Positions 50,812 to 53,836 of a stretch of DNA of 55,752 bases are shown piece after piece. The stretch is taken from assembly GCA_947503115.1 (NCBI GenBank), contig CANNCS010000011.1, positions 1-55,752 of the forward strand, given 5' to 3'. The notes beneath the pieces were generated by a model that worked only from the letters and a program-made list of their open reading frames with translations, was not told where the DNA came from and ran no database searches. This DNA comes from an uncultured Marivita sp. (GTDB taxonomy: Bacteria; Pseudomonadota; Alphaproteobacteria; Rhodobacterales; Rhodobacteraceae). Within the stretch, counting starts at the first letter, position 1. Each line of letters opens with the position of its first letter. The position numbers and the translations under genes were made by a program.

Positions 50812-51657
50812 ATGACTGACCTCGACGCCCTGAAAGCCGTGATCCGTGCCGACAGTGCCGCGCGCGGGCAGACCGTGTCGAAACTGGGTTATTTCTGCGC
50901 ACCATTTCGCCCCACATCCGGCCCGTTCTCGGATAAGGTGATCAAGGTCTATCGGGGCTTGCGCGATCAGGCCGCTCTCGACCGGCTGGCTCAGTGTCAC
51001 GACGATTACGTGGCGGCGCTGAACACAGCCGGGGTTGCCTTGCCGGACACGGAATTTCACCTGCTCGACATAGACGGCTCCCGCATTCCAGTGATCGTGC
51101 AAGAGGCACTGCCCTCGGACAGTATGATGCGCCCGCAGATGCAGAGCGCCAGCGTCGATGAAACACTTCAGATGATGGAAGCGGCAGGCGACGTGATCGC
51201 CACCTTCTGGAACAATGCCGACCAGTTCGACACCCGCATTGGCTTTCACCCGTCGATCCGCAATTTCGCCTATCTCGACGGCCGTGCGCTGTTCTTTGAC
51301 ACCTTCCCGCCACTGATCCACTACAACCGCGAGGAAATGGGCAAGATGCTGCTCTTGTTTTCGGACAAGGCGCTGATGCGCTGGGTTGGGCCTTTTCTGC
51401 AGGCCAAGGTGACGGGCATACAGGACGAATGGTATTCGGCTCCGGAAACGTTGGTGGGCTTGGTTGGGTCGGCCTGCCGCCTGCGCCCAGACGATGCCGA
51501 AGCCTATCTCGACTGGGGTCGTGATTTCACCCAGCGGCGCATGCCCCGGTGGGCGGACGAGGCGTTGCCGCATTTGCAGGAACCGCCGCGCCTTCCGGGG
51601 TATTGGACTGGGTTCCGCAAACTTCTGGGCCTTCAGGGCGAACCCAACGTGTCCTAA
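50812..51657 (+). CDS. unknown protein in an operon with the ParA ATPase
   Basis: 281 residues with AAGGAG eight bases before the ATG, 30 bp after the ParA stop. It is soluble, with many aromatic residues: FHLLDIDGSRIPVIVQEALP, IGFHPSIRNFAYLDGRALFFDTFPP and LMRWVGPFLQAK. The strand-turn DGRALFFDTFPP following a helix looks like the catalytic segment of aminoglycoside-phosphotransferase or kinase-like folds, which would make it a distant kinase-like protein (DUF6206-like is possible). That is by eye only. Its pairing with ParA suggests it may be the ATPase's partner or cargo. Confidence 0.6.
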   Translation: MTDLDALKAVIRADSAARGQTVSKLGYFCAPFRPTSGPFSDKVIKVYRGLRDQAALDRLAQCHDDYVAALNTAGVALPDTEFHLLDIDGSRIPVIVQEALPSDSMMRPQMQSASVDETLQMMEAAGDVIATFWNNADQFDTRIGFHPSIRNFAYLDGRALFFDTFPPLIHYNREEMGKMLLLFSDKALMRWVGPFLQAKVTGIQDEWYSAPETLVGLVGSACRLRPDDAEAYLDWGRDFTQRRMPRWADEALPHLQEPPRLPGYWTGFRKLLGLQGEPNVS

Positions 51658-51690
51658 GTTTGCAAACTTGGCTGGTGGGTTTGCAAACTT
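51656..51690. promoter_or_regulatory. twin GTTTGCAAAC palindromes, 21 bp apart
   Basis: AAGTTTGCAAACTT (51656-51669) is a perfect 14-bp palindrome; a second GTTTGCAAAC with a trailing TT lies at 51679-51690. Centres are 21 bp apart, two helical turns. A half-site GCAAACTT lies at 51617-51624 inside the upstream gene. They overlap the stop of the ParA-partner gene and sit 80 bp before the UspA start. An operator for the UspA-hemerythrin pair or a centromere-like site for ParA are both possible. Confidence 0.65.
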
Positions 51691-51770
51691 CAACGGCCAT
51701 GATGCGGATCAAGGAACGGCACCCAAAACGACCCTAGACTGCCCCCATCCTGAAGTAAGGGAGGGGATCC

Positions 51771-52178
51771 ATGTATTCGAACATTCTCGTACCTATCGCA
51801 CTCGACAATGAAGACGACCGCACACCGCAGGCCTTGGAGATTGCCAAGACGCTTGCGGCCGACGGTGCCACGATTACGCTGCTGCATGTGGTTGAAGCCG
51901 TGCCAAGCTACGCCATCAGCTATATTTCGGCAGAAATTTTGAACGCCACACGCACCGGGATCGAAACCGAAATGGCCCGTCTCGCATCCGAGATCGGCGC
52001 CAATTCCGTGGTGATCGACGGTCACTCGGGGCGGTCCATCCTCGACTATGCCGAGGAACAGGGAACCGATCTGGTCGTCATCGCTTCGCATCGGCCCGGC
52101 ATGCAGACACTGCTGTTGGGGTCCACGGCAACGCATGTGGTGCGCCATGCAAATTGCTCGGTTCATGTTCTGCGCTGA
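51771..52178 (+). CDS. universal stress protein, UspA family
   Basis: 135 residues. MYSNILVPIALDNED opens the fold; LGSTATHVVRHANCSVHVLR carries the C-terminal ATP-type motif with G-S-T, where the usual G-x2-G-x9-G is partly degenerate, so nucleotide binding is uncertain. A GGGAGG precedes the ATG. It lies between the twin palindromes and the hemerythrin gene, 51 bp away, which suggests a joint stress operon. Confidence 0.92.
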   Translation: MYSNILVPIALDNEDDRTPQALEIAKTLAADGATITLLHVVEAVPSYAISYISAEILNATRTGIETEMARLASEIGANSVVIDGHSGRSILDYAEEQGTDLVVIASHRPGMQTLLLGSTATHVVRHANCSVHVLR

Positions 52179-52199
52179 TTGACATTCCCGGCGCGCGGA

Positions 52200-52227
52200 G
52201 CACCTCCTGCCGGATAGCAGGAGGTGC
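52200..52227 (+). promoter_or_regulatory. perfect hairpin sequestering the hemerythrin Shine-Dalgarno
   Basis: GCACCTCCTGC (52200-52210) and GCAGGAGGTGC (52217-52227) form an uninterrupted 11-bp stem with a 6-base loop. The AGGAGG ribosome binding site (52219-52224) lies wholly inside the 3' arm, and the ATG follows at 52230. The anti-SD CCTCCT is supplied by the 5' arm. There is no T-run, so a terminator is unlikely; translational control is the natural reading. Confidence 0.75.
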
Positions 52228-52229
52228 CC

Positions 52230-52781
52230 ATGAACGATACACTGACACTCGATACCCGAGACGGCCTGCCGGACGCACTGCGGGCGCTCTTGCACGACTT
52301 CCCGCGCGATGCATGGCCCGCGCATGACAATTTCGCAGGGTTGGTGGCGTTCTGGCTGGATCGACACCTAATGTTTCGTCGATTGATGACCGCACTCATC
52401 GACGATGCCGAACACGCAGTCGACCACAAGATCGACGCACAGACTCACGCCGCGAAATTGTCGCGCTACGGCTCGATGCTGTTGCAGAACCTGCATGGAC
52501 ACCACCAGATCGAGGACCATCATTACTTTCCGGTTCTGGCTACGCGAGAACCGATCTTGAACAAGGGTTTTGAGCTGCTGGATTCGGATCACCACGCGAT
52601 GGATGGGTTGCTCAATCGCTTTGCCGACGGAGCCAACGCGGTGATCCAGGGGCAGATGGAGGCCGGAGCGTTTCGCACGGATTTGCTAAGTTTTCAGGCG
52701 ATGCTGAACCGGCACCTGATCGACGAAGAGGAATTGGTCGTACCGGTGATTCTCAAACACGGGCCCGGTGGGCTGGGCTGA
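52230..52781 (+). CDS. hemerythrin HHE domain protein
   Basis: 183 residues from the ATG at 52230, five bases after AGGAGG; an in-frame GTG at 52224 overlaps the SD and is rejected. The HHE domain supplies histidines and acids in WLDRHLMFRRL, HGHHQIEDHHYFP, LDSDHHAMDGLL and HLIDEEELVVP, enough for a di-iron site. Proteins of this type bind O2 or NO or take part in iron and redox stress. It follows UspA and has its ribosome binding site in a hairpin. Confidence 0.9.
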   Translation: MNDTLTLDTRDGLPDALRALLHDFPRDAWPAHDNFAGLVAFWLDRHLMFRRLMTALIDDAEHAVDHKIDAQTHAAKLSRYGSMLLQNLHGHHQIEDHHYFPVLATREPILNKGFELLDSDHHAMDGLLNRFADGANAVIQGQMEAGAFRTDLLSFQAMLNRHLIDEEELVVPVILKHGPGGLG

Positions 52782-52843
52782 CGGGTTTACTTGGTCGCCC
52801 GGGCCATGGCAGATGTGCCGCCAGACCAAAACGGAGCCCGCGC

Positions 52844-53836
52844 ATGGACATTGACGAACTGGCCACCCGCATCCTTGGCGGGGAACGCCGTGCGCTTGCC
52901 CGCGCGATCACCCTTGTGGAAAGCGGTCGCGCTGATCACCGGAGTGATGCACTGAACCTGTTTGACAGGCTTAAGGGCCACGGCCGCGAAGCATTGCGTA
53001 TCGGTCTGTCCGGTACGCCCGGTGTGGGCAAATCCACCTTTATCGAAACCTTCGGGATGATGCTGACGGCGCAGGGGCTCAAAGTCGGTGTGCTGGCAGT
53101 GGATCCAAGTTCGACACGTTCGGGCGGCTCGATTCTTGGCGATAAAACCCGGATGGAACGTCTGTCGCGCGATCCAAACGCTTTTATCCGCCCGTCGCCC
53201 TCGCAATCGCATTTGGGTGGCGTGGCCCGCCGCACACGCGAGGCGATCGACCTGTGTGAGGCGGCTGGCTTTGACGTTGTGCTGATCGAAACCGTCGGGG
53301 TGGGGCAGTCCGAAACCGTGGTGGCAGAAATGTCTGACCTGTTCCTGTTGCTGCTGGCCCCGGCAGGGGGCGACGAATTGCAGGGTGTCAAACGCGGGAT
53401 CATGGAGATGGCGGACATCATCCTTGTAAACAAAGCGGATGGTGACCTTAAGGCTACGGCAACGCGCACCTGTGCCGACTATGCCGGGGCACTGCGCCTA
53501 ATGCGCAAACGCCCGCAGGATCCGCAGGGCTTTCCCAAGGCCATGACGGTCTCGGCGTTGGAGGATATGGGGCTGACCAAAGCGTGGGAAGAAATGCAGA
53601 GCCTCACTCAATGGCGGCGGGACCACGGCCATTTTGCAGCCCGACGCGCTGCACAGGCGCGATTCTGGTTTGAGGCCGAACTGAAGCAATCCTTGTTGGC
53701 GCGGTTGGAGCGGGAGCCCATGAAGGGCCTTGTTCAGGCGCTGGGACATGCAGTGGAAGACGGAATAAAGACCCCCAGTCAGGCAGCGGTCGAGGTACTG
53801 GCCCAGATCGAAGGGCGGACATCTCAGTTAGCATAG
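52844..53836 (+). CDS. meaB: methylmalonyl-CoA mutase-associated GTPase MeaB
   Basis: 330 residues. G1 is GTPGVGKST (57-65), the Mg-binding DPSSTRSGGSILGDKTRM follows (switch region), G3 is ETVGVGQSE and G4 is NKAD. MeaB/ArgK loads and protects adenosylcobalamin in methylmalonyl-CoA mutase. The mutase is not in the window. With nrdJ it is the second B12-linked gene here, implying the cell makes or takes up B12. Confidence 0.95.
   Translation: MDIDELATRILGGERRALARAITLVESGRADHRSDALNLFDRLKGHGREALRIGLSGTPGVGKSTFIETFGMMLTAQGLKVGVLAVDPSSTRSGGSILGDKTRMERLSRDPNAFIRPSPSQSHLGGVARRTREAIDLCEAAGFDVVLIETVGVGQSETVVAEMSDLFLLLLAPAGGDELQGVKRGIMEMADIILVNKADGDLKATATRTCADYAGALRLMRKRPQDPQGFPKAMTVSALEDMGLTKAWEEMQSLTQWRRDHGHFAARRAAQARFWFEAELKQSLLARLEREPMKGLVQALGHAVEDGIKTPSQAAVEVLAQIEGRTSQLA

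Follow-up and report, generated by a model that had tools for sequence, protein, structure and literature searches.

The window analysed here, a stretch of 55,752 nucleotides, corresponds to contig C11 in a genome of 4.5 Mb that belongs to the Marivita group, by which we mean the genus of the source genome. A gene for a uspA-like universal stress protein (135 aa, PF00582) is located at 51771–52178 of the forward strand with its stop codon TGA at 52176–52178, and is followed on the same strand by a gene for a hemerythrin-domain protein (183 aa; 52230–52781) recognised by a match to PF01814, so that the uspA–hemerythrin pairing proposed in the earlier note holds; meaB (PF03308) comes after the hemerythrin gene. 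The gap between the uspA stop and the hemerythrin ATG is 51 nt here, and 47–51 nt in the 16 Marivita-group loci described below. It opens with TTGAC directly after the stop (52179–52183, forward strand), which is invariant in all 16 loci. TTGAC was common near the uspA stop in other genera too, and in many of these it overlaps the stop codon itself.

The rest of the gap is dominated by a hairpin, in which a perfect stem of 11 pairs joins 52200–52210 to 52217–52227 (forward strand) around a loop of 6 nt, CGGATA, at 52211–52216. The 5' arm GCACCTCCTGC carries the anti-Shine-Dalgarno (anti-SD) sequence, and the 3' arm GCAGGAGGTGC contains the whole Shine-Dalgarno (SD) sequence AGGAGG at 52219–52224. 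These coordinates agree with the mismatch-free 11-bp stem, loop of six and enclosed AGGAGG that had been read from the letters; the ATG at 52230 lies two bases beyond the stem (CC, 52228–52229), not three. A terminator-like site with a T-tract was searched for at the hairpin and none was found, as the earlier reading had also said, and a scan of 51600–52900 against Rfam 15 with E up to 1 gave no matches. The leader folded at −31.4 kcal/mol compared with −19.3 ± 3.0 kcal/mol for its shuffles (z −4.0; 0 of 200 shuffles matched it), and the hairpin folded alone at −22.0 kcal/mol. Between 4 and 80 °C the predicted probability of an unpaired SD never exceeded 0.006. In all four longer folds that included uspA coding or hemerythrin sequence the inner 9 pairs or more persisted, and masking the RNA up to 52190 was predicted not to disturb the stem. 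Fold prediction thus bears out the proposed sequestration of the SD, in opening cost as well as in SD pairing, and confirms a predicted hairpin over the hemerythrin ribosome site of the kind that had been described.

Opening the region from −17 to +3 at the hemerythrin start was predicted to cost 21.0 kcal/mol. None of 342 gene starts called in some 455 kb of this genome reached 20 kcal/mol (median 8.7, maximum 19.7), and perfect stems on their SDs were 8 bp long at most; the underlying gene calls are crude and include wrong starts and antisense ORFs, two of which replace uspA and hemerythrin, so that the hemerythrin start itself is absent from this set. For same-strand downstream genes of this genome with gaps of 25–70 nt (n = 25), the median was 7.4 and the maximum 18.2 kcal/mol. 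All these indicated that the hairpin is more than chance would produce. Another SD-hiding hairpin of this genome, GTGCCTCCTG...CAGGAGGCAC, is located at about 557–593 of L162 (G000:C172), just 5' of an ATG, and the ORF behind it resembles a GNAT acetyltransferase by eye. Three hairpins of one kind, CCTCCTGA...TCAGGAGG, lie beside T-runs (L159 at 1184 and 3195, L160 at 1047; G000:C23 and C94); they are apparently related terminators in repeated contexts, similar in sequence to the hemerythrin hairpin.

Searches of 17 Marivita-group genomes, the source genome included, found the hemerythrin gene in 16, with uspA preceding it in all 16 and with hemerythrin protein identities of 73–91% in the genus. 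The predicted stem covers the SD at all 16 loci, being weak at L011, L015 and L016 (opening costs of 11.9, 11.2 and 11.8 kcal/mol) and shifted in its pairing at L014 when the gap was folded alone. Mean pairwise identity across the 16 loci was 0.93 for the SD arm and likewise 0.93 for the anti-SD arm (positions 52200–52209, with the innermost pair, which forms in 5 of the 16 loci, counted as loop), compared with lower values in the upstream flank (0.53), the loop (0.58) and codons 2–5 (0.64); the loop varies in both sequence and length, roughly from 4 to 8 nt. The strict pattern ACCTCCT-N3-16-AGGAGGT was present in 12 of the 17 genomes, each time at the hemerythrin start, and its one extra site in the source genome is a terminator. 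The backward control pattern occurred at one place across the genus genomes, in G008, and looser patterns mostly hit other sites among the matches listed.

The earlier note had looked to relatives for both conservation and covariation, and only the former was found, as the stem over the SD and the identity of the anti-SD arm testify. None of the 11 pairs changes on both sides in the alignment of the 16 loci, 5 of the 11 are invariant, and 88.1% of cells are paired compared with 88.3% in shuffles; sliding the partner by 1–3 columns lowers pairing to 33–56%. With covariation missing in the genus, the argument rests on the conserved anti-SD arm, which SD function does not explain. Judged from sequence comparison, support comes instead from this arm together with the replacement of whole stems in other genera.

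To describe these genera, we called a hemerythrin gene linked when a same-strand uspA match ended within 260 nt upstream. In the genome contigs, 32 of 80 loci had uspA directly upstream (14 in the Marivita group and 18 in others) and 48 did not. Opening costs were computed for distinct 90-nt windows from loci L002–L130 that had an in-frame start near the expected place, which gave 92 hemerythrin windows (49 from L002–L050 and 43 from L051–L130); starts outside the stretch analysed here were set by script, without annotation. Genus-level searches for additional relatives gave five further loci, four of which are junctions already scored, and the fifth, the uspA-linked L225, was left out. The median cost of opening −17 to +3 was 20.0 kcal/mol for linked genes of the Marivita group (n = 16) and 16.8 kcal/mol for those of other genera (n = 20), compared with 8.4 kcal/mol for hemerythrin genes without uspA (n = 56, including five distant paralogues, L018–L022), and the control starts of uspA and meaB had medians of 10.7 (n = 38) and 10.9 kcal/mol (n = 16). 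Both linked sets differed from the unlinked one (Mann–Whitney p = 1.5e-8 for the Marivita group and 6.7e-9 for the other genera), as did 22 linked from 52 unlinked clusters after similar sequences were collapsed (p = 6.2e-9), and the effect of linkage was 7.6 ± 0.9 kcal/mol with GC as a covariate. When only the upstream part from −50 to −18 was shuffled, with SD and start kept intact, z exceeded 2 at 11 of the 16 loci of the Marivita group and at 10 of the 20 other linked ones, compared with 5 of 56 unlinked hemerythrin, 4 of 38 uspA and 0 of 16 meaB starts. These costs, set against the roughly 7–11 kcal/mol of the controls, argue that occlusion largely tracks the operon and not the gene. The association has exceptions on both sides: the linked loci L011, L015, L026, L032, L034, L046 and L081 show no excess (z below 1), with L015, L032 and L034 falling under the shuffled mean, and L075, L079, L041 and L089 are occluded (19.9, 16.6, 16.1 and 15.9 kcal/mol) though they have no uspA.

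In the uspA–hemerythrin pairs of other genera the sequence of the stem is replaced. A CTCTG...CAGAG stem covers the SD in Puniceibacterium (L068, L073, L080) and Thalassococcus profundi (L076), and most or all of GGAG lies inside unrelated stems in Salipiger mucosus (L095) and at L040. The stem extends up to or into the ATG in Mameliella (L081, L083, L087), Sagittula salina (L071), Pseudoprimorskyibacter (L093) and L085; by eye, several of these starts have little recognisable SD. Covariation was also considered in the four-sequence Puniceibacterium and Thalassococcus set, where two pairs appear as U-A, C-G and U-G, and was rejected, since 117 of 500 shuffles did as well and the changes are therefore not evidence. 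In Roseivivax (L075 and L070), the ORF upstream of hemerythrin has an end resembling that of the ORF just before uspA in other genera (for L075, by eye, at L068 and L039), and this context looks as if uspA was lost; the start is still occluded at L075 and less so at L070 (11.8 kcal/mol).

The position of the stem relative to the uspA stop differs between these groups. The alignment puts the beginning of the Marivita-group core stem 21–22 nt past the stop, after nucleotides that are mostly variable; its end is typically 2 nt from the ATG. The stop-to-start gap is 30–59 nt in 19 other linked loci (L046, where no stop was found, was left out of the distances), and the stem starts 4–11 nt past the stop in 13 of these 19, with a range of 1–19 nt; these distances are a selected list, which takes in only hairpins with 4 or more pairs whose end lies near the start and counts outer extensions. 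In a scan of 36-nt windows around the start, median folds were strongest at −20 and −10, with −17.6 and −16.5 in the Marivita group and −12.6 and −11.5 in the other linked loci; unlinked loci had −7.4 and −5.8 at these places. From the geometry of the ribosome footprint, the leading edge of a ribosome terminating on uspA probably stops short of the Marivita-group core stem.

Upstream of the operon, an FNR-type box ATGATGCGGATCAA at 51699–51712 (forward strand) matches TTGAT-N4-ATCAA at 9 of 10 positions, 72 nt before the uspA ATG. Such a box was found 70–74 nt before uspA in all 16 Marivita-group loci, scoring 9 of 10 in 15 of them and 8 of 10 in one. For the 20 other linked loci, the highest scores within 200 nt were 10 (three loci), 9 (four), 8 (eleven) and 7 (two), two of the 8-point boxes lying at other distances (L026 at −145 and L040 at −82); shuffled upstream regions reached a score of 9 in 0.06% and of 8 in 2.7%. 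The available part of PMC2908626 lists the uspA gene RSP0697 of Rhodobacter sphaeroides as a bound FnrL target and ATGAT-N4-ATCAA and CTGAT-type sequences among the FnrL sites, the available text of PMC4263372 has the RSP0697 promoter activated by FnrL and CrpK, and that of PMC5398030 has Usp genes of D. shibae activated by FnrL. These boxes, together with the FnrL-controlled usp genes of R. sphaeroides and D. shibae, suggest that the uspA–hemerythrin operon is probably under FNR control and induced at low oxygen. The oxygen link visible at the locus is a transcriptional one, through the FNR-type box that precedes uspA.

Three results, the predicted occlusion, the conservation and the association with the operon, are the basis on which we read the hairpin as a selected element that makes hemerythrin depend, by translational coupling, on ribosomes delivered by uspA, a reading to which we give close to an even chance. 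The hairpin would occlude the ribosome site of the second gene in a probably FNR-controlled operon, and free 30S subunits would hardly be able to start hemerythrin alone. Ribosomes from uspA translation would open the stem, or cross the short gap and restart, and hemerythrin would be made only together with UspA, in smaller amounts. The actual block of translation, its relief by uspA ribosomes and its physiological purpose are what we infer from this basis. An SD predicted to stay closed from 4 to 80 °C implies that the stem needs an opener, as the gene would otherwise be nearly silent, and the conservation of hemerythrin in the genus argues that it is probably made in useful amounts. Because occlusion is present with uspA and mostly missing without it, uspA ribosomes suggest themselves as the opener, and among the openers considered in the earlier note (temperature, a protein, a small RNA or ribosomes translating upstream) the last fit the association with uspA best.

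In favour of dependence on uspA ribosomes are an anti-SD arm as conserved as the SD arm though SD function alone leaves it unconstrained, the higher opening costs of linked genes, the lower ones of the 25 downstream genes with gaps of 25–70 nt, the predicted unrelated stems over the SD or ATG in other genera, the fold minimum at −20 to −10, and the stems that start 4–11 nt past the stop in 13 of the 19 loci of other genera in the selected list. Against it stand the distance of 21–22 nt between stop and stem in the Marivita group, with a stem that survives masking up to 52190, and the long gap of 47–51 nt, as well as the lack of covariation in the genus, a z of 2 or less at 5 of the 16 loci of the Marivita group and at 10 of the 20 linked loci elsewhere, and the few genes that are occluded with no uspA before them. 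A terminating ribosome probably does not cover the Marivita-group stem, so that coupling there would need scanning ribosomes. In the accessible part of PMC12548453, occluded downstream sites are described for many coupled pairs as an established kind, and coupling is said to fade with spacing, one study of several pairs finding little of it beyond 30 nt and others seeing it reduced 3- to 10-fold by about +40; rpmI–rplT at +52, a spacing that resembles the +51 found here, is given there as an example of the RNA unfolding model. Like the pairs in that part of the article (rpmI–rplT, f1 VII–IX and, in its reference list, atpHA), uspA and hemerythrin are co-directional neighbours separated by a short gap, with a structure predicted over the downstream ribosome site. 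Unlike those pairs, the structure here is a compact, local and perfect hairpin lying wholly past the uspA stop, and the dependence on uspA is suggested by association. The element would be a fresh case of a known translational-coupling arrangement.

A possible but less probable explanation is a static brake or insulator, that is, a ribosome termination structure overlapping the next ribosome site, which would keep hemerythrin low relative to UspA and halt the run-on of uspA ribosomes with no opening signal. The available text of PMC7518266 reports such structures as enriched in the class of gaps of at least 25 nt, to which this gap belongs; its finding that a structure just after the stop lowered second-gene expression in a synthetic operon counts against coupling. 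Compared on gap and energy, the locus roughly fits the thresholds for this class (at least 25 nt, and −6 kcal/mol or lower near the stop; its definition also asks for a negative delta-LFE) and likewise has a stable structure after the stop, and the Marivita-group core stem is probably out of a terminating ribosome's reach, which would suit a fixed barrier. The same portion of that article places the genome-wide minimum of the signal in E. coli 5 nt past the stop, whereas the hairpin here is set on the start codon that follows and takes in its SD; a structure immediately after the stop is not what the Marivita group has, with its 21–22 nt of spacing, and would be found in several other genera. 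The 25 generic downstream genes with gaps of 25–70 nt have mostly open sites, and a hemerythrin 73–91% identical in the genus is probably made in useful amounts, both of which speak against a brake.

We consider it unlikely that the stem is opened by a trans-acting factor (a small RNA, an RNA-binding protein or a helicase) in some particular situation, for example when oxygen is low or under NO or iron stress. A stem predicted too stable to open alone, the anti-SD arm conserved in sequence in the genus and the FNR-type box upstream of the operon would suit such a factor; stem and loop are replaced between genera and the loop varies in sequence and length within the genus, a turnover that argues against one conserved binding site, and no Rfam family matched. 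An equally unlikely reading is a recurrent, sequence-independent lock rebuilt by selection behind uspA, whose Marivita-group version lies beyond the terminating uspA ribosome and would hence need a dedicated opener. Candidate openers would be UspA itself, an anaerobic RNA-binding protein or scanning 70S ribosomes, and hemerythrin output would then follow an AND gate, with FNR transcription as one input and a second, translational cue as the other.

Stable intercistronic stems are known, for example from the Rhodobacter puf operon, and the hairpin could be a 3'-end or processing element that shields the uspA mRNA from 3' exonucleases and covers the SD only incidentally to the short gap. Strong stems after some uspA stops without hemerythrin (such as L166, L172, L180 and L187), which may be terminators, are in line with this; the stem is nevertheless placed at the start codon despite 21 nt of room upstream, uses the SD itself as its 3' arm and reaches the ATG in several other genera, and where another uspA closely follows (L167, L178) no strong stem on the SD is seen by eye, all of which makes such an element quite unlikely. 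Still less credible is an intrinsic terminator, attenuator or DNA operator palindrome, suggested by an inverted repeat between genes: termination was rejected because no T-tract follows the stem, unlike the three similar G000 hairpins with T-runs that resemble ordinary terminators, and a protein operator fits neither the replacement of the entire stem from genus to genus nor its anchoring to the start codon. RNA thermometers of the ROSE and fourU types likewise pair the SD in a 5' hairpin, and temperature had been among the openers proposed, but the stem here is perfect and GC-rich and its SD is predicted to stay paired up to 80 °C without release over the physiological range, so that a thermometer was rejected and is left with a negligible probability.

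For coupling to uspA, the 36 distinct operon junctions form a natural series in which occlusion is largely kept and sequence replaced, with related hemerythrin genes that have no upstream partner as controls. As the stop-to-stem distance in this series runs from a few to about 22 nt, the mechanism of coupling (unfolding, scanning or a trans-acting factor) is directly testable. On this reading, these marine bacteria should produce hemerythrin along with UspA when oxygen is low. We found no description of an SD-hiding hemerythrin hairpin or of uspA–hemerythrin coupling in the open-licence literature; the main text of PMC4263372 never mentions hemerythrin, and in the available part of PMC3413700 the word is confined to a reference. 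RSP0697, as presented in the accessible parts of PMC2908626 and PMC4263372, is likewise a uspA gene with an FNR-type site, and its regulation there concerns transcription only, unlike the hairpin here.

Just 5' of the FNR-type box lie two palindromic TTTGCAAA boxes, at 51659–51666 and 51680–51687. The motif occurs 6 times in the window compared with 1.5 expected, and none of 100 shuffles had as many. By eye, the closer loci of the Marivita group mostly have a box like it in front of uspA, and L013–L017 do not. The motif resembles that of short-chain fatty-acid regulators of the PccR, RamB and PrpR kind, and we mention beside it that the gene behind hemerythrin is meaB.
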